Virus record (IMG/VR): IMGVR_UViG_3300045966_000097
Span: 1-37,176 of that record
Strand: one strand, 5' to 3'
Source of the DNA: a virus
DNA: 37,176 nt
In this document: positions 1,611-37,176 of the stretch, one piece after another
Layout: every line of letters starts with the position of its first letter
How positions within the stretch are numbered: the stretch's first letter is position 1
The notes under the pieces: model-generated
Seen by the model: only the letters and a program-made list of their open reading frames with translations
Databases searched by the model: none
What the model was told of the DNA's origin: nothing
Translations under genes and position numbers: made by a program

Positions 1611-1718
1611 ATGGACGACGCGAAACAGGACAAAGTTAGAGCGGATCACCGAACAGATGCCCCGGGAAGGGGAACAAAAGTTGCGCACTCCCGCAACTTT
1701 TATAGGGTGAATCCCTGA
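1611..1718 (+). CDS. Leader-like small protein, 35 aa, first gene of the early operon
   Basis: ATG preceded by a very good ribosome binding site (GGAGGG, 5 bases upstream). It encodes 35 mostly charged, basic residues with no recognised domain. Its TGA overlaps the ATG of the replication gene (TGATG at 1716-1720), the usual mark of translational coupling. Codons 22-31 run through the perfect palindrome at 1676-1701, so translation of this short frame could also open that hairpin. Function unknown. It could be a coupling leader for the initiator or a small DNA-binding peptide. Confidence 0.55.
   Translation: MDDAKQDKVRADHRTDAPGRGTKVAHSRNFYRVNP
1676..1701. promoter_or_regulatory. Perfect palindrome upstream of the replication gene
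   Basis: AAAAGTTGCG and its exact complement CGCAACTTTT are separated by six bases (CACTCC). The half-site AAAGTTGC recurs three times inside the downstream replication gene at 33-bp intervals. This palindrome is therefore probably a binding site of the same protein (initiator autoregulation), though an A-tract/T-tract hairpin could also terminate transcription in either direction. Confidence 0.55.
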
Positions 1719-2830
1719 TGCCGCGGCCGCAGAAGGATCCGCCGCCGATCAGCAAGGCGGGCCTTTACGCTGAATTTGAGGCCGCTACCAAACCTCCCTT
1801 CAAATTCACCAAGTACTCCAATGCCAGCCTCGAAGCGATCATGCGCGACGAGATGGCCACCATCGGCCAGCGCTTCCTCGCCTGGCTAATGCGCCGGTCC
1901 TGGGGCGAGTACCGGCTATTTGCAGTTCAGGAAGACGGGGTGACGCCGGCGATCCAGAGGAACTGCTGCGCCGATCTCGGCATCGACAAGACGTCGTTGT
2001 CCCGCACGGTTGCGTACTACGAGAAACGCGGGTACATCCGCTGCGAGGGGAAACTGCTAATCCCGGTGCTTGTTCCGGACCTCGAAACAAAGCCGTCCGC
2101 TGTCGAGAATTCCGAAGGTTTCGCGACGTTTTTGGAGGAGTGGAAAGTTGCAAACAGCGCCGACTTTGACGAGCTAAAAGTTGCGCGAGCCACGCTAAAA
2201 CGGCTCAATAAAGTTGTCCTCTCCGACTACAAAAAGTGGCGAGCATCCCGGAATAACGCCGGCGCTTCCTTATTAGAGATCGACAAGACGCCCAAAGCGG
2301 AGACCCCCCCCAAGACGGCGCCCCCCGCCAGTCGTCGTCAACCAGAAGCTATTAACAAGAGAGAAGAGCCGGAACCGAAGAAGGAAAACTCAAGGAAGGC
2401 GACGACGACAAAACCTCCTGATGAGGTCCCGGCCGGCGGATACGCCAGCGATCGCGACGAGCTGGTCGCCCTCATGAAGTCCACCCTCGGCCGTACCCCG
2501 GATCAAAAGGCCGTCCGCACCATCACCGAGGCGATCGAACTCCGCAGCGGATGCCTGCGCGAATACCTCGATGACATCCGGCCGCGGCTCGACCGGCTCC
2601 GCAACCCAGCCAAAGAGGGATTCTTCATCCGGCACGCTCAAGTCTGGGGAGGGGAAGCGACGACGCCCGCTCCCGATCCTGCTATGGCGGCCAAGAGTGC
2701 CGGCCCGTGTGAGTGCCGCGGGGTTGGCAAGATCGGGGACACCTACTGCGCCTGTCCAATGGGTGTCGACCTTCAGCGTGTCGAATCGCGCCCCGCGAAA
2801 CCTGCGACGGCGCCAAACGGAGTGCCGTGA
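1718..2830 (+). CDS. Replication initiator, lambda-O-like with winged-helix N-terminus
   Basis: A 370-aa protein. Residues about 28-125 look like the winged-helix DNA-binding domain of phage O-type replication proteins, with a predicted recognition region around IDKTSLSRTVAYYEKRGYI (residues 89-107). A Lys/Glu/Pro-rich linker covers about 175-235. A second helical domain (about 240-310, with a TLGRTPDQKAVRTI-like segment) follows. The C-terminus is Cys-rich (CECRG...CAC, about residues 332-349) and may bind zinc. In lambda, O binds iterons inside its own gene and recruits the helicase. Here three repeats at exact 33-bp spacing lie in codons 143-168. No helicase gene was recognised, so a host helicase is probably recruited. 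The ATG overlaps the preceding stop and the TGA overlaps the next ATG. Confidence 0.72.
   Translation: MPRPQKDPPPISKAGLYAEFEAATKPPFKFTKYSNASLEAIMRDEMATIGQRFLAWLMRRSWGEYRLFAVQEDGVTPAIQRNCCADLGIDKTSLSRTVAYYEKRGYIRCEGKLLIPVLVPDLETKPSAVENSEGFATFLEEWKVANSADFDELKVARATLKRLNKVVLSDYKKWRASRNNAGASLLEIDKTPKAETPPKTAPPASRRQPEAINKREEPEPKKENSRKATTTKPPDEVPAGGYASDRDELVALMKSTLGRTPDQKAVRTITEAIELRSGCLREYLDDIRPRLDRLRNPAKEGFFIRHAQVWGGEATTPAPDPAMAAKSAGPCECRGVGKIGDTYCACPMGVDLQRVESRPAKPATAPNGVP
2143..2217 (+). repeat. Iteron-like array, probable replication origin
   Basis: AAAGTTG occurs at 2144, 2177 and 2210, exactly 33 bp apart (about three helical turns). Each is preceded by an A-rich base and the first two continue as AAAGTTGC. 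The same sequence forms both arms of the palindrome at 1676-1701. In the protein this gives Lys-Val every 11 residues. Iterons inside the initiator gene are the known arrangement of lambdoid origins, so this is the best candidate for the phage origin. An A/purine-rich stretch follows at about 2340-2415. Confidence 0.55.
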
Positions 2831-3045
2831 TGCAATGCCCAAACTGCGGAGCGCTTCTAAAAGTTTCCATATGCCCCGAGCAGCCCGCGCCCGTCCTGCG
2901 TGACACCGGGCGAATGCTGCGCTCGTATGATCCGGTCGTGCGGGTCGAGGCTGCGAATGCAATCTTGAACGACCCCGAATCTACGCCTGAGCAACGGGTC
3001 GAAGCGGTGACCGTGCTCTCGGCTCTCAAGGAAGTTGCTGCATGA
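2830..3045 (+). CDS. Small zinc-ribbon protein, 71 aa
   Basis: It starts at the ATG overlapping the replication gene stop (TGATG) and ends in an ATGA overlap with the next frame. The N-terminus has a CPNC motif (residues 3-6) and a further Cys at 15, compatible with half of a zinc ribbon. The rest (about 30-71) is helical and acidic, with a repeated-looking pattern VRVEAANAILND...EQRVEAVTVLS. Function unknown. Its place right after the initiator suggests a role in early DNA metabolism or regulation. Confidence 0.7.
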   Translation: MQCPNCGALLKVSICPEQPAPVLRDTGRMLRSYDPVVRVEAANAILNDPESTPEQRVEAVTVLSALKEVAA

Positions 3046-3387: not shown

Positions 3388-3584
3388 TCCGCGAGACCCA
3401 AACCACCCAGGACCACGAACCGATCATCGTCGCCCTCCACCCGAACCACATGACCATGCGACTCCGCGGTCAACGGGAGAGCGAAGAGATCAAACTCAAC
3501 TACGATGCGGTCTACCGGTTGGGCAAGATGTATGACAAGTACTACTACCGCCGCCGCCCCAAGATCGTGAAGGCTGCATCGTGA
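3351..3584 (+). CDS. Hypothetical protein, 77 aa
   Basis: Overlaps the preceding gene by 37 bases and the following GTG-started gene by four (GTGA at 3581-3584). The product has a probable beta-strand segment (IIVALHPNHMTMRLRG, about 25-40) followed by a basic, tyrosine-rich tail (KLNYDAVYRLGKMYDKYYY then RRRPK), which could contact nucleic acid. No family recognised. Confidence 0.65.
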   Translation: MSITKLVSCAPVIRETQTTQDHEPIIVALHPNHMTMRLRGQRESEEIKLNYDAVYRLGKMYDKYYYRRRPKIVKAAS

Positions 3585-3731: not shown

Positions 3732-4730
3732 GTGAGCCTCCTCGCCCAGCGTAGAGCCTTCATCGCGGCATACCGAAAGACCGGATCGATTGAGGCTGCG
3801 GCCGCCGAGCTGGGCCTCGACCCCTCGATTCACGAGGAATGGTCGAAGGACTGGCTGTACCGCGGCGCCTTCGCGGAGACCGTGAAGGAGATGAAGCTCG
3901 AGGCCGAGGGCAAGCTGCCACCTCCACCCCCGCCCAGGAGACCTCCCGGCCGGCCGAAGAAGGTGCTCGCCGGCCCGCCGCCGCCGAAGAGACCGCCCGG
4001 CCGGCCGCGGAAGACGCCCGGCCCGGGTACTGGACCTCACAAGGCTGAAAAATCGGCCGAGGCTGGAAAATCAGCGGCTGAATTTTCAGCCCGTGTGGAA
4101 ACATCCCAGGAACCCCTGCCACTGAGCCCAGAGCCGGCCCAGGAGCCATCCGTCGCCGCCGTGCCGCCCGTCGACACCCCCCAACTCCAAGAACACGTCT
4201 TCCCCGGGCAGAAGGGCTATGTGAAGTTGTTTGTGCCCGAGGGGGAAGTCCCCGCGCCGCCGGCGGAGCCCGAGAGGCCGAAGCGCCAGGTCCAGCAGCC
4301 CGCGCCCGATCCCGTCCTCGAGGTCACTGTCGCGACAGACGAGCAGCAGAAAGCGCTCGTTGACGAGTACGGCGAACTGGATCGGCGGATGCAGTTGAGG
4401 GCAACGGACACGGCGCGGTATGAATCGCTGAAGAAGGGGATCAAGAATTGGTTCGCCAACGTGCCGCCGGATGCGGACGGAACCGTCGAAGGCGACGTCT
4501 ACCTGCTGCACCTCTCAGCGTGTGAGAGGGAGAGGAAGATCCGGAGCGTGCGCGAGCTGGTGGATATGATCGGGCTCGAGAAGGTGCTCGACCTGGCTGT
4601 CGTCCCGATTGGGGCTCTCGAGAATATGCTGGGGAAGGATCGCGTGAGCGGTCTGACTGTAGAGACCAGGACCGGAAGCCGGCGGATTAAGGCGATTCCG
4701 AAGCGGCCGGCGGCAGTGCAAGTGCATTAG
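3732..4730 (+). CDS. AT-hook protein with a TerS-like N-terminal domain
   Basis: A 332-aa protein with a GTG start. Residues 5-50 (RRAFIAAYRKTGSIEAAAAE and following) resemble the N-terminal helix-turn-helix of this phage's own small terminase (34756-35226). Two AT-hooks follow (PPGRPKK at 71-77, RPPGRPRK at 87-94) in a proline-rich linker, then a Pro/Glu-rich spacer to about 215. A C-terminal helical domain (about 220-320) carries ACERERKIRSVRELVDMIGL. The design, two DNA-binding elements plus a separate C-terminal domain, suggests a DNA-bound regulator or recombination/packaging accessory protein. It ends the rightward early operon and converges with the next leftward operon, overlapping by four bases. 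Confidence 0.7.
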   Translation: MSLLAQRRAFIAAYRKTGSIEAAAAELGLDPSIHEEWSKDWLYRGAFAETVKEMKLEAEGKLPPPPPPRRPPGRPKKVLAGPPPPKRPPGRPRKTPGPGTGPHKAEKSAEAGKSAAEFSARVETSQEPLPLSPEPAQEPSVAAVPPVDTPQLQEHVFPGQKGYVKLFVPEGEVPAPPAEPERPKRQVQQPAPDPVLEVTVATDEQQKALVDEYGELDRRMQLRATDTARYESLKKGIKNWFANVPPDADGTVEGDVYLLHLSACERERKIRSVRELVDMIGLEKVLDLAVVPIGALENMLGKDRVSGLTVETRTGSRRIKAIPKRPAAVQVH

Positions 4731-8320: not shown

Positions 8321-8941
8321 TTATGCCGCAGCTTGCGGCTTCTCATGCGGGATGATCGAGTGGACCGTGAACACGCTCATGCCCGTCTCCCTGCCGATCG
8401 CCCTGATGGACTTTCCGCGGAGGTGGAGTTCGATCACCTTGTCGCGCTCTGACTGGGTGAACTTCCGGCGCCGGCCGAGCTTCACGCCGCGGCGCACTGC
8501 CGCAGCCAGGCCGGCCTTCACACGCTCGCGGATCATGCTGCGCTCGAATTCGGCAAAGGCGGCCATAATATCCATCAGCAATTTCGAGCCGGGGTTCTGT
8601 TGGTCAGTGTCTATAGATTGGGAGATGCAAATAAACCTCACTCCGGCACCGTTCAACACCTGCAAGTGCTCAACGAAATTCGCGACGGATCGCCCGAATC
8701 GGTCAAGCTTCCAACACATGACCACATCGAACATGTGCTTCCGTGCCGCCGCCATCAACTTGTCGAGTTGCGGCCGCGACTTCTTTGAGCCTGACCAGCC
8801 GGTATCGACGTATTCGGCGACGATCGGCCAGCCCCTGCGCTCACAGTACTCCTTCATTTCATTGAGTTGCAGGTCGCACCTCTGATCGGAGGTCGAAACA
8901 CGCGCATACAGAGCAATCTTAAGAGTCCGGATCGGCATCAT
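8321..8941 (-). CDS. Serine recombinase, small resolvase/invertase family
   Basis: A 206-aa protein of normal length for this family. Residues about 8-150 form the catalytic domain with the nucleophile serine in LYARVSTSDQ (S16), then WKLDRFGRS, MAAFAEFERSMIRERV and GVKLGRRRKF. The last ~45 residues are the helix-turn-helix that recognises its sites (SIRAIGRETGMSVFTVHSII). It cuts and rejoins DNA through a covalent serine link and could resolve dimers or invert a segment such as tail genes. A good ribosome binding site (GAGG, 8 bases upstream) lies inside the end of the HNH gene, which overlaps it by 23 bases. A second, broken N-terminus of the same family lies beyond the HNH gene (9645-9728). 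Confidence 0.92.
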   Translation of the reverse strand: MMPIRTLKIALYARVSTSDQRCDLQLNEMKEYCERRGWPIVAEYVDTGWSGSKKSRPQLDKLMAAARKHMFDVVMCWKLDRFGRSVANFVEHLQVLNGAGVRFICISQSIDTDQQNPGSKLLMDIMAAFAEFERSMIRERVKAGLAAAVRRGVKLGRRRKFTQSERDKVIELHLRGKSIRAIGRETGMSVFTVHSIIPHEKPQAAA

Positions 8942-9572
8942 AACATCTACCTCGTGATAGATAAGCTACCGCATTTTCAAAGCGATGCGTGTCCTCAGAA
9001 AACAGCGCAATGGCTTGATTGCATTTGGCACAGAGTAATCCACGCACACATTTCGGGCAACCAAAGCGCCCGGGACAGCACCGATGGTCATGATCAATGC
9101 CCAAACTCCACATGCCACCCTTTGCGCCTCTCCTCTGCTCCGGCTGATAGCAAATACCGCAAACATGATTTTGAGCCCGCAGTAGTTCTTCGTAGCGTTC
9201 CAGGGTGATCCCGTGGCTTTTGCAGCGGCCTCTACACCAGAGGAACAGCATCCTGTCCTTACGGTTCGACTTCCAGGCCTCTCTGGTCGCCGTTCCTTCG
9301 GGCGAGCTGTAGTATTGTCGCCGTCGCGCCCGATTCCGCGTGTGAAACTCTTCGTCGGATGCATGTTTCTCTTTGTATCGGAGACTGGCTCTAACTTGTA
9401 TCGCCTTGGCGCGTTCCGGATTATCGATTCGCCACTGACGGTCTTGTGCGATGCGGCAGGTTTTGCAGCATCCCATTACGCCACCCTTTGCGCTATGGTT
9501 GGCATAAAATCCGGTCAACGGCTTCGACACTCCGCACTTGATGCATGTGCGGCTGGTATTATCGGATTGCAT
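8919..9572 (-). CDS. HNH homing-type endonuclease, endonuclease VII family
   Basis: 217 aa from the ATG at 9572, which has a strong ribosome binding site (GGAGGG, 6 bases). An in-frame ATG at 9596 lacks one. The N-terminal zinc finger (CIKCGVSKPLTGFY, then CCKTC) and the basic helical middle are typical of mobile phage HNH proteins. The C-terminal nuclease (about 130-205) shows the recombination endonuclease VII signature: GITLERYEELL, CGIC, LGIDHDH, then CPKCVRGLLCAKCNQA. The gene stands between a 27-codon stump of a serine recombinase and a complete serine recombinase, as expected for a homing endonuclease that targeted a recombinase gene. Its start lies just after an 8-bp hairpin that partly covers the ribosome binding site. 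Confidence 0.88.
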   Translation of the reverse strand: MQSDNTSRTCIKCGVSKPLTGFYANHSAKGGVMGCCKTCRIAQDRQWRIDNPERAKAIQVRASLRYKEKHASDEEFHTRNRARRRQYYSSPEGTATREAWKSNRKDRMLFLWCRGRCKSHGITLERYEELLRAQNHVCGICYQPEQRRGAKGGMWSLGIDHDHRCCPGRFGCPKCVRGLLCAKCNQAIALFSEDTHRFENAVAYLSRGRCYDADPDS

Positions 9573-21760: not shown

Positions 21761-23523
21761 CAGGCTATCTCCGATGGCGTGGCCTCAAGGAATGCGTCCG
21801 TCAGCGCAACTTTCGCCTTGCCCTGCACGCCGATCCGGTAGACGCGATCGCGCGAGCAGCCGAGCCGGCGCCAGACGATCCTCTTGCTGTAATTGCCCGA
21901 AAGGCCAGAGGTCTGTGTGACAGTACGGCCGGTAGGGAAGGTGTGCCCCCGGTCACTGCTCCAGTCGAGCGCGACGGCCATCTCCGGGTTCGGCGCTACG
22001 ACCGTCCCCGTCTCCATGTACAGTTCAAAGCGGTGATGGAACAGATACCGGTCCTCATCGAGCAAGTGCGGAAATGTGCGGATGTACTGGATCGGAACTC
22101 CGTCGTCGTCGTAGAAGTCAAGGCTCTGCTCGTACAACTTTCCCGTGGACGGGTCGCCGACAATGTGCTTGCCCCCCTGGCCCCATTCCGGGATGAAGAC
22201 GTGATACCACGGCTGGTAACGGATGAACGCCCCCGGCGCCGGCGACGGGTTGAACCCGTAGCGTTGATGCCAGAGATTCTCGGTGACGTCGTAGACCCAC
22301 GTCTGCTGCTGTGCCCAGAAATTGACGACCCAGAACAGGTGGCCCGCATCGAGGTACGAGTAAGACACTGCGTCCCGCGCATTGAACCCCGGCGCATTCC
22401 AGGCTTGTTCCTGCGCGAACGTCGAGATGCGCTGCGGCTGCAACCCCCGGGCCATATAGGCCACCGTCTGCCCATTGGGCGAGCCGGCCAGCGCACATAC
22501 TCCCAGTGCTACCGAACACGGCGCATATGTGGAGACCGACCCCTCATGGATGAACGCCCCGCCCATGCGCTGGAACGGAAAGTTGGGGTCGCCGACATTC
22601 GACCAGATATCCGTTGTCTCCGTGCCCAGAAGCCATAACTCCTCGTGGTCGCAGAGGATGGACCGTATGTAGTCCGAGTGCCCTTCCTTCACGCCGAAAT
22701 CGAGCGGATTCCATACCGTGAAGTCGTTAATGTCGCTGATATTGAATTGGCGCCCGGGGTCTGCCGGCTCTTCCACCCCGGCTCGATTCCGGAGCAGCCG
22801 CCTGGTGACAACCCCCGGCCCCGGCGGATTCGGCGGTCGGTTCGTGATGCCATACCCGTCGAGGAATCCGCCCGTGACGCCCGTCACCTGATCGCCCGAC
22901 CGAGGGACGCTGTACGGCAGGTCTGAACCCGCCGGCACCGGACTCGAGACGGCAATCACTGCGTCGTTGATGAAAGAGGTGACAAGATAGTCGATATCGC
23001 CGATCCGCATCAGTTGCCCGACCATCAGAGCGTTGAACTTGTCCGAGGTTTCCGGCGTTGCGCCGCTGGGCGTCCAGTAGACGTTCACTGAGCCGTCCGT
23101 ATCGACCATGCCGAATACGGTGAAGCGGGCCGGTTCCGGTCCCGCGCCATTGTTCACATAGACCAGCCCTCCCGAGACGATCATGAGCTGGTGCCCGTTG
23201 GAGAAGATCTGCGCCGGGTCAGGCGAGACGGCCGGCGTGCTCTCGGCGACGGTCTGTGACGCCGTTGTAATCGTTCCGGCCTCGGTGATCTCCGACTGCT
23301 TGTTGCCGTGGATGGCGAAGAGCCGGCCGCCGCCGGCCCAGAGGCACCTGATCTTTGCCGGCGAGAGTGTAGCGAACAGCTTCAGGCCGGGTCTCCCGAT
23401 GAGCACCTGGCGCCGTGGCTCGTCCCCCGCGGCGAGCGTCTCCGGATACCAGTTGATTGTCTCCTGCGTTGCCGCGACTACGCTTTTCGATGTGTAGGAG
23501 GGTCCAGCCAGAGAGATCTTCAT
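21760..23523 (-). CDS. P22 gp10-like packaged-DNA stabilisation/tail protein
   Basis: 587 aa, normal for this family. The N-terminus MKISLAGPSYTSKSVVAATQ and TINWYPE, then a KLFATL and GGRLFAIHG segment, match the phage packaged-DNA stabilisation family related to P22 gp10. These proteins close the portal/gp4 channel after packaging. The body is rich in beta-propeller-like strands with repeated Trp/Tyr (LWLLGTETTDIWSNVGD, LFWVVNFWAQQQTWVYD). In order it lies after the second gp4-like adaptor, as expected for portal-gp4-gp10 stacking. Confidence 0.8.
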   Translation of the reverse strand: MKISLAGPSYTSKSVVAATQETINWYPETLAAGDEPRRQVLIGRPGLKLFATLSPAKIRCLWAGGGRLFAIHGNKQSEITEAGTITTASQTVAESTPAVSPDPAQIFSNGHQLMIVSGGLVYVNNGAGPEPARFTVFGMVDTDGSVNVYWTPSGATPETSDKFNALMVGQLMRIGDIDYLVTSFINDAVIAVSSPVPAGSDLPYSVPRSGDQVTGVTGGFLDGYGITNRPPNPPGPGVVTRRLLRNRAGVEEPADPGRQFNISDINDFTVWNPLDFGVKEGHSDYIRSILCDHEELWLLGTETTDIWSNVGDPNFPFQRMGGAFIHEGSVSTYAPCSVALGVCALAGSPNGQTVAYMARGLQPQRISTFAQEQAWNAPGFNARDAVSYSYLDAGHLFWVVNFWAQQQTWVYDVTENLWHQRYGFNPSPAPGAFIRYQPWYHVFIPEWGQGGKHIVGDPSTGKLYEQSLDFYDDDGVPIQYIRTFPHLLDEDRYLFHHRFELYMETGTVVAPNPEMAVALDWSSDRGHTFPTGRTVTQTSGLSGNYSKRIVWRRLGCSRDRVYRIGVQGKAKVALTDAFLEATPSEIA

Positions 23524-36459: not shown

Positions 36460-36936
36460 ATGTCACGCTCAGAATACATCACCAAGGAAGTCGCTGCCAA
36501 TCGGAGCGGTCGCAGCGTGCGCCGGCTGCTCGAATTGGCCTCCACAGGCCGAATCAGGAAGCAAATTGTCCGCGACGAGCGAAACGCCGGCCGGGCCCTC
36601 GCCCTGTTTCATGCCGGCGACATTGCCAAACTGGCCCAGACGGCAAAGGGGGAAATTCCAACCCCTGGATCTGTGCAAATCGTTCGGCCAGTGCGGCCTA
36701 TTGCAGCATTGCCGCAGGGTGAAGGCGCAACCGTACTTTCACCGAACCCGCGCCCCTGGCTCACCTTAGCCGAGGCGGCCGACTATACCGGCCTGCCTGA
36801 GTCGTTCCTCTTGGCCCGAATCACCGCCCGGAAACTGCCGGCCCTGGACGTTGGCGTCCGGCCTGGAGGGAGGTGGCGCGTGGCCCGCCGCGATCTTGAT
36901 CACATTGCGGCACACGGTTCCCGCGTCAGTCAATAA
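36460..36936 (+). CDS. Excisionase-like protein with two helix-turn-helix domains
   Basis: 158 aa with two MerR/Xis-type winged helix units. The first, about 5-60, is ITKEVAANRSGRSVRRLLEL then STGRIRKQIVRDE. The second, about 98-150, is WLTLAEAADYTGLPESFLLA then ITARKLPALDVGVRPGGRWR with VARRDLDHI, the classic excisionase-family recognition pattern. They are joined by a Pro-rich linker. Small HTH proteins of this kind act as recombination directionality factors or repressors. On a circular genome it lies beside the integrase. Its 3' end (last 54 bases) lies within the 111-bp repeat, so recombination or circularisation happens at its end. Confidence 0.78.
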   Translation: MSRSEYITKEVAANRSGRSVRRLLELASTGRIRKQIVRDERNAGRALALFHAGDIAKLAQTAKGEIPTPGSVQIVRPVRPIAALPQGEGATVLSPNPRPWLTLAEAADYTGLPESFLLARITARKLPALDVGVRPGGRWRVARRDLDHIAAHGSRVSQ

Positions 36937-36993: not shown

Positions 36994-37037
36994 GTTTCTC
37001 GACGAACCACCAGACCGGCGCTTCGTCCGCTTCGGGA
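36994..37037. repeat. Inverted repeat arm B, 44 bp
   Basis: Exact reverse complement of 35870-35913, starting at the very base where the 111-bp repeat ends. A junction this abrupt points to recombination, an inversion breakpoint or a chimeric join. Confidence 0.95.
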
Positions 37038-37176
37038 AGGTCGCCGGTCGTCAGCATCGGCAAGACTGCCGCGGATTTCTACCGGGTGTCCAACAGAATA
37101 CCCACACGACCCCGGGGGCACGCTATTTAAAACTGTTATTTCCCCTGGGCTGCTCTTATTGCAGAACAATCGTGAC
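36994..37176. other. Right-end tail not collinear with the phage
   Basis: After the 111-bp repeat the sequence no longer follows 112 onward. It begins with the 44-bp inverted copy, then 139 bp with no match I could find elsewhere in the window. A 47-codon frame starts at an ATG inside the repeat (36987, GAGGGG upstream) and ends at about 37130, but I do not trust it. Possible readings: host DNA flanking attR, the other orientation of an invertible segment, or an assembly/amplification chimera. Confidence 0.7.

Follow-up and report, generated by a model that had tools for sequence, protein, structure and literature searches.

In phage lambda, iterons within the initiator gene and dimers of the O protein are established (PMC7466680, PMC3985674), and the iterons are 19-bp imperfect inverted repeats (PMC7466680). 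In plasmid F, an inverted operator between the promoter and repE is bound by dimeric RepE, which autoregulates there (PMC13028717). Among the phage genes compared here, in-gene repeats begin at about +340 to +430 in lambda O, P22 18, phi80 15 and Tuc2009 rep, and follow one another at steps of 15-24 bp in these four genes and in TP901-1 rep. None of the five is preceded by a dyad of the same motif, unlike the locus described below; again unlike that locus, the 150 bp upstream of lambda O, P22 18 and phi80 15 do not contain the repeat word at 0-1 mismatch, and TP901-1 rep has one word with one mismatch at -86. An in-gene origin and an operator of inverted half-sites are each already known. Here we describe a phage locus at which a putative origin and a putative operator of these two kinds occur together.

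The window, i.e., the whole stretch of 37,176 nucleotides that was analysed, from a soil phage (IMG/VR record IMGVR_UViG_3300045966_000097), carries late genes (terminase, portal and a phrog_283 major head protein) that match P22-like podoviruses. A second contig joins position 36993 to position 1 with a 111-base overlap and so closes the record into a circle. The last 183 bases (36994-37176) lie outside the circle and probably represent an assembly junction; one portion repeats another phage stretch in inverted orientation, and positions 37078-37176 match positions 8862-8960 of the contig L030. A tyrosine integrase (365-1372, - strand) is divergent from the gene considered here. Its closest cellular relatives were found in Bryobacterales MAGs (44-46%), and the host is therefore probably an acidobacterium. 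The GC skew of the window, suggested in the sequence-only reading as a check for the origin, is without a clear origin signature.

The gene at 1718-2830 (+ strand), which codes for a probable replication initiator of 370 aa, contains AAAGTTG at 2144, 2177 and 2210 on the + strand (+426, +459 and +492 from the start codon), exactly 33 bp apart, as the sequence-only reading had reported. The same reading had placed the three sites on the same face of the helix. This is approximate only: since 33 bp corresponds to 3.14 turns at 10.5 bp per turn, with a drift of about 50 degrees per step, the sites lie roughly, not exactly, on one face. The three copies encode K143-V144, K154-V155 and K165-V166, which are the only KV pairs of the protein, and all three pairs are written AAA-GTT. 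In the 13 other genes of the window phage, AAA makes up 44 of 259 Lys codons (17%) and GTT 32 of 387 Val codons (8%), and AAAGTT spells one of 16 KV pairs; at the codon rates of the phage, the probability of finding AAA-GTT at three of three KV pairs is about 3e-6, considering codon choice alone. Three copies of AAAGTTG were reached in 90 of 20,000 synonymous codon permutations of the gene and in none of 3000 Markov shuffles. Regarding the whole window, nine copies are present versus 1.70 expected from dinucleotide shuffles, and the five copies within 541 bp exceed the maximum of any A/T-containing 7-mer in 60 window shuffles. Because each of the three Lys-Val pairs is spelled AAA GTT, two codons of low frequency in this phage, chance does not explain the in-gene repeats; they are real and detectable at synonymous positions. 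Further copies occur in the late region at 21807, 22135, 22579 and 24572, where no arrangement is apparent.

Upstream of the gene lies a putative operator (1676-1701), a perfect 10-bp inverted repeat with an N6 spacer, AAAAGTTGCG-CACTCC-CGCAACTTTT, which ends 16 nt before the start codon at 1718. In it the in-gene site occurs twice, in opposite orientations, with AAAGTTG at 1677 (+) and 1694 (-). Significance of this repeat on its own was rejected, 0.83 inverted repeats of 10 bp being expected per window by chance (shuffles), and its weight therefore comes from its match to the iterons. Iteron 1 (2144-2167, +) doubles as a degraded dyad, AAAGTTG-N10-CGACTTT, which has the geometry of the operator and one mismatch, an arrangement reached in none of 3000 shuffles. 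Iteron 2 (2175-2189, +; TAAAAGTTGCGCGAG) agrees with the right half-site of the operator in 14 of 15 bases, which was reached in none of 300 shuffles. Iteron 3 (2210-2216, +) is the plain AAAGTTG; it is overlapped and followed by a weak candidate unwinding region (2198-2257, +), in which the A+T content over 60 bp reaches its maximum for the gene (53% A+T versus 39% for the gene as a whole). The two operator copies, the dyad at iteron 1 and the parallel layout in the related phage described next were overlooked in the sequence-only reading. The inverted repeat was also considered as an intrinsic terminator and rejected, as it was not flagged as such and no recognised rightward gene lies directly upstream. 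A search for sigma-70 promoters gave none close to the operator, although promoters of this host may be of another form.

A second phage, L032 (IMG/VR 3300045947_000082, 36 kb), shows the same layout with another motif. It is 83% identical to the window phage in the terminase, 74% in the integrase and 73% in the gene at 3732-4730. In the DNA comparison, similarity ends at position 1587 of the window and is regained at 3582; on visual inspection, L032 already has a counterpart of the ORF at 3042. The swapped segment includes a small zinc-ribbon-like ORF (2830-3045, +) that overlaps the stop codon of the initiator gene. In L032 the syntenic gene codes for an initiator-like protein of 351 aa, which has no detectable similarity to the window initiator (best BLASTP E 0.35) and gave only weak matches in a search of Acidobacteriota genomes. 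One copy of the motif GTTGACAGTACTGTCAAC lies 17 nt upstream of the start codon (-35 to -18); the identical palindrome recurs at +399, followed by GTTGACAGTACTTT at +468. GTAC cores are found at +475 (within the +468 copy), +508 and +541, i.e., at exact 33-bp steps, the last two sites being degenerate; the +399 palindrome precedes the next core by 69 bp, not 66. Elsewhere in the 36-kb record, the 18-bp palindrome was not found within 3 mismatches. Without functional DNA sites that the protein encoded there reads, it would be difficult to account for the same place, layout and pitch with a different motif.

The comparison bears on a reading in which the motif is the site of some other regulator, either a phage repressor or a host factor of the MarR or Lrp type, that represses the early gene from the dyad and the in-gene sites while the gene product binds elsewhere. 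Looping repressors also show an upstream dyad with downstream auxiliary operators, and the window does contain a candidate in a separate small HTH gene at 36460-36936. However, with flanking genes 73-83% identical, the motif in L032 is wholly different and this gene changes along with it, the 33-bp step is retained, and a host factor would be expected to keep its motif between phages so close; we consider such a regulator unlikely.

The codons of the motif are rare in the other genes of L032 as well (GTT in 5 of 80 Val, AGT in 4 of 59 Ser and ACT in 1 of 59 Thr codons), so that selection at the DNA level, as claimed in the earlier reading, is borne out by rare synonymous codons in both phages. 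If the in-gene repeats were instead a side effect of a helical repeat with an 11-residue period in the linker, i.e., a protein-level duplication and not DNA-binding sites, Lys-Val every 11 residues in a segment predicted to be helical would fit, but the use of rare third codon positions (AAA, GTT) would not, nor would the identical half-site outside the coding region, and the 33-bp step of L032 codes for Ser-Thr/Arg-Thr rather than Lys-Val. This origin of the repeats appears very improbable.

Both leaders fold into hairpins, that of the window with a 10-bp stem beside the start codon (-22.5 kcal/mol) and that of L032 with a z of -4.65. The upstream repeat might accordingly act as an RNA hairpin by the ribosome-binding site that controls translation or mRNA stability, the in-gene match being due to RNA pairing or chance. 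Palindromic DNA operators, however, all fold in this way, the overall stability of the window leader is unremarkable (z -1.26), and a hairpin leaves the 33-bp direct repeats and the matching in-gene copies of both phages unexplained. Control at the RNA level is thus regarded as distinctly improbable.

The protein encoded at 1718-2830 is predicted to comprise a helix-turn-helix with wing at about residues 78-116, a helical linker that encodes the iterons, and a C-terminal domain in common with an O-like protein. In the AlphaFold model, helices at 78-87 and 91-103 and strands at 107-110 and 113-116 have a pLDDT of about 64-70, the model overall being poor (mean 41.6); the iteron-coded segment forms a long helix in this weak model. 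No initiator family was matched, Pfam giving only MarR_2 at E 0.016 and PHROGs none, and no homologues were found in phages, plasmids or solved structures. Regarding whole-protein homologues, searches of phages, plasmids, 84,980 species genomes and IMG/VR yielded only the identical record and a partial relative, L069 (70%), the sole close relative, which ends before the iteron region. The C-terminal 164 residues match a protein from an acidobacterial genome, L063, with a BLASTP E of 6e-13 pairwise and 2.9e-10 in the search. The N-terminus of L063 in turn matches PF04492 Phage_rep_O at 5e-5 (below the curated cut-off) and phrog_678, the PHROG 'replication initiation O-like', at 5e-13. A three-row alignment including L063, compared with lambda/P22/phi80 using hhalign, gave an E of 5e-5 and a probability of 67%, whereas the window protein alone gave nothing. 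The term lambda-O-like, used in the sequence-only reading for this gene, is therefore supported in part: the C-terminal half is homologous to a protein whose N-terminus is O-like, the window protein itself has no match to PF04492 or to an O-like PHROG, and membership of the lambda-O family is supported solely through the C-terminal domain. The C-terminal half is also homologous to L061 and L070. L063 and L061 have palindromic motifs of their own in the gene, with no upstream copy; in the distant initiator relative L061:582-1889 (+) and L070, the in-gene palindromes resemble ACTCTGTACAGAGT and lie at +400, +670 and +697 to +715.

By analogy, the protein is probably an initiator that works like lambda O. 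As in lambda O, P22 18 and phi80 15, the initiator-like early gene holds its repeats in the middle of the coding sequence, and the C-terminal domain is tied via L063 to an O-like protein; unlike the lambda O family, the protein has no PF04492 match. The resemblance to the lambda origin noted earlier extends to repeats inside a probable initiator gene but not to their form: the window has direct and mostly single half-sites at 33 bp, only iteron 1 having a degraded dyad, where lambda has 19-bp inverted repeats at steps of 20-24 bp. The rep genes of the lactococcal phages Tuc2009 and TP901-1 also contain repeats inside a replication gene, and the Tuc2009 record places an origin within rep; unlike the window gene, they are of the helicase-loader type, with 15-22 bp repeats, and lack a same-motif dyad operator. 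With RepE of plasmid F, the locus shares direct half-sites together with an inverted half-site pair directly before the initiator gene, a pair that L032 has, in its own motif, at -35 to -18. Unlike in plasmid F, where the iterons lie outside repE, they lie inside the gene in the window, and unlike RepE, the window initiator has no Rep-family Pfam match and no plasmid homologue and is found in a phage context.

In the mechanism proposed here, the protein would recognise AAAGTTG(CG) half-sites via its predicted N-terminal winged helix. On the three direct in-gene sites (2144-2216) it would nucleate an origin complex, as lambda O does in gene O. As a dimer on the inverted half-sites (1676-1701), it would switch off transcription of its own gene, in the manner of RepE in plasmid F. 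Acting at both sets of sites, one protein would couple initiation to its own supply; the shared half-sites suggest that it triggers the origin and also restrains its own synthesis. We infer DNA binding, repression, origin function and the monomer/dimer split at the window locus from the analogous systems. Because protein, operator and iterons must match, the module would be exchanged whole between related phages. We therefore regard as likely, on sequence comparison and analogy, a lambda-O-like in-gene origin with a plasmid-RepE-like operator that is swapped between phages as one module. The broader proposal, that a P22-like temperate lineage, probably of Acidobacteriota, has self-contained initiator modules whose operator, in-gene iterons and DNA-binding domain shift in specificity as a set, with a constant 33-bp pitch, is put forward tentatively, at slightly less than an even chance.

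One stretch of 540 bp would thus unite the in-gene origin of lambda with the operator of inverted iteron halves of F and similar plasmids. The comparison with L032 amounts to a natural specificity swap, in which phage backbone, layout and pitch are shared and the motif differs, and it makes testable whether this class of initiator needs the 33-bp pitch and how a protein-coding site drifts in step with its reader. If the proposal is true, module exchange would give a conserved phage new replication specificities, much like immunity regions.

The specificity of the layout, defined as an inverted repeat at most 70 bp upstream with an arm that recurs three times, clustered inside the ORF, was assessed in 608 ORFs of at least 180 aa from 635 kb of de-duplicated loci fetched for other reasons, a sample that serves as a specificity control and not as a phage survey. 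Only the window initiator and the L032 gene showed the layout (2 of 608), and it was absent from five displaced controls with windows shifted by 300 to 1500 bp. In IMG/VR, a scan for the operator and the L032 palindrome gave matches beyond these two phages in unrelated contexts, and among the contigs with the three-site pattern none encodes a relative of the initiator except the identical record. The chimeric contig L030, which also carries the initiator of the window, was left out of the count of 608 ORFs; it may hold a third instance of in-gene copies combined with a dyad at the start codon. There, a gene for a 211-aa HTH protein (L030:8963-9598, +) has the palindrome TTGGACAC-N10-GTGTCCAA directly before its start codon and the same motif twice near its 3' end (TTTGGACAGGTGTCCAAAGTGTCC and TTCGGACACATGTCCAAAGTGTCGG). 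Several of the PF04492 genes in Acidobacteriota genomes have in-gene repeats, with no dyad operator of the same motif. One PF04492-type gene from an acidobacterial genome (L088:802-2073, -) contains an unusually large array, in which a GGTCAA motif occurs about ten times within the gene over about 500 bp.
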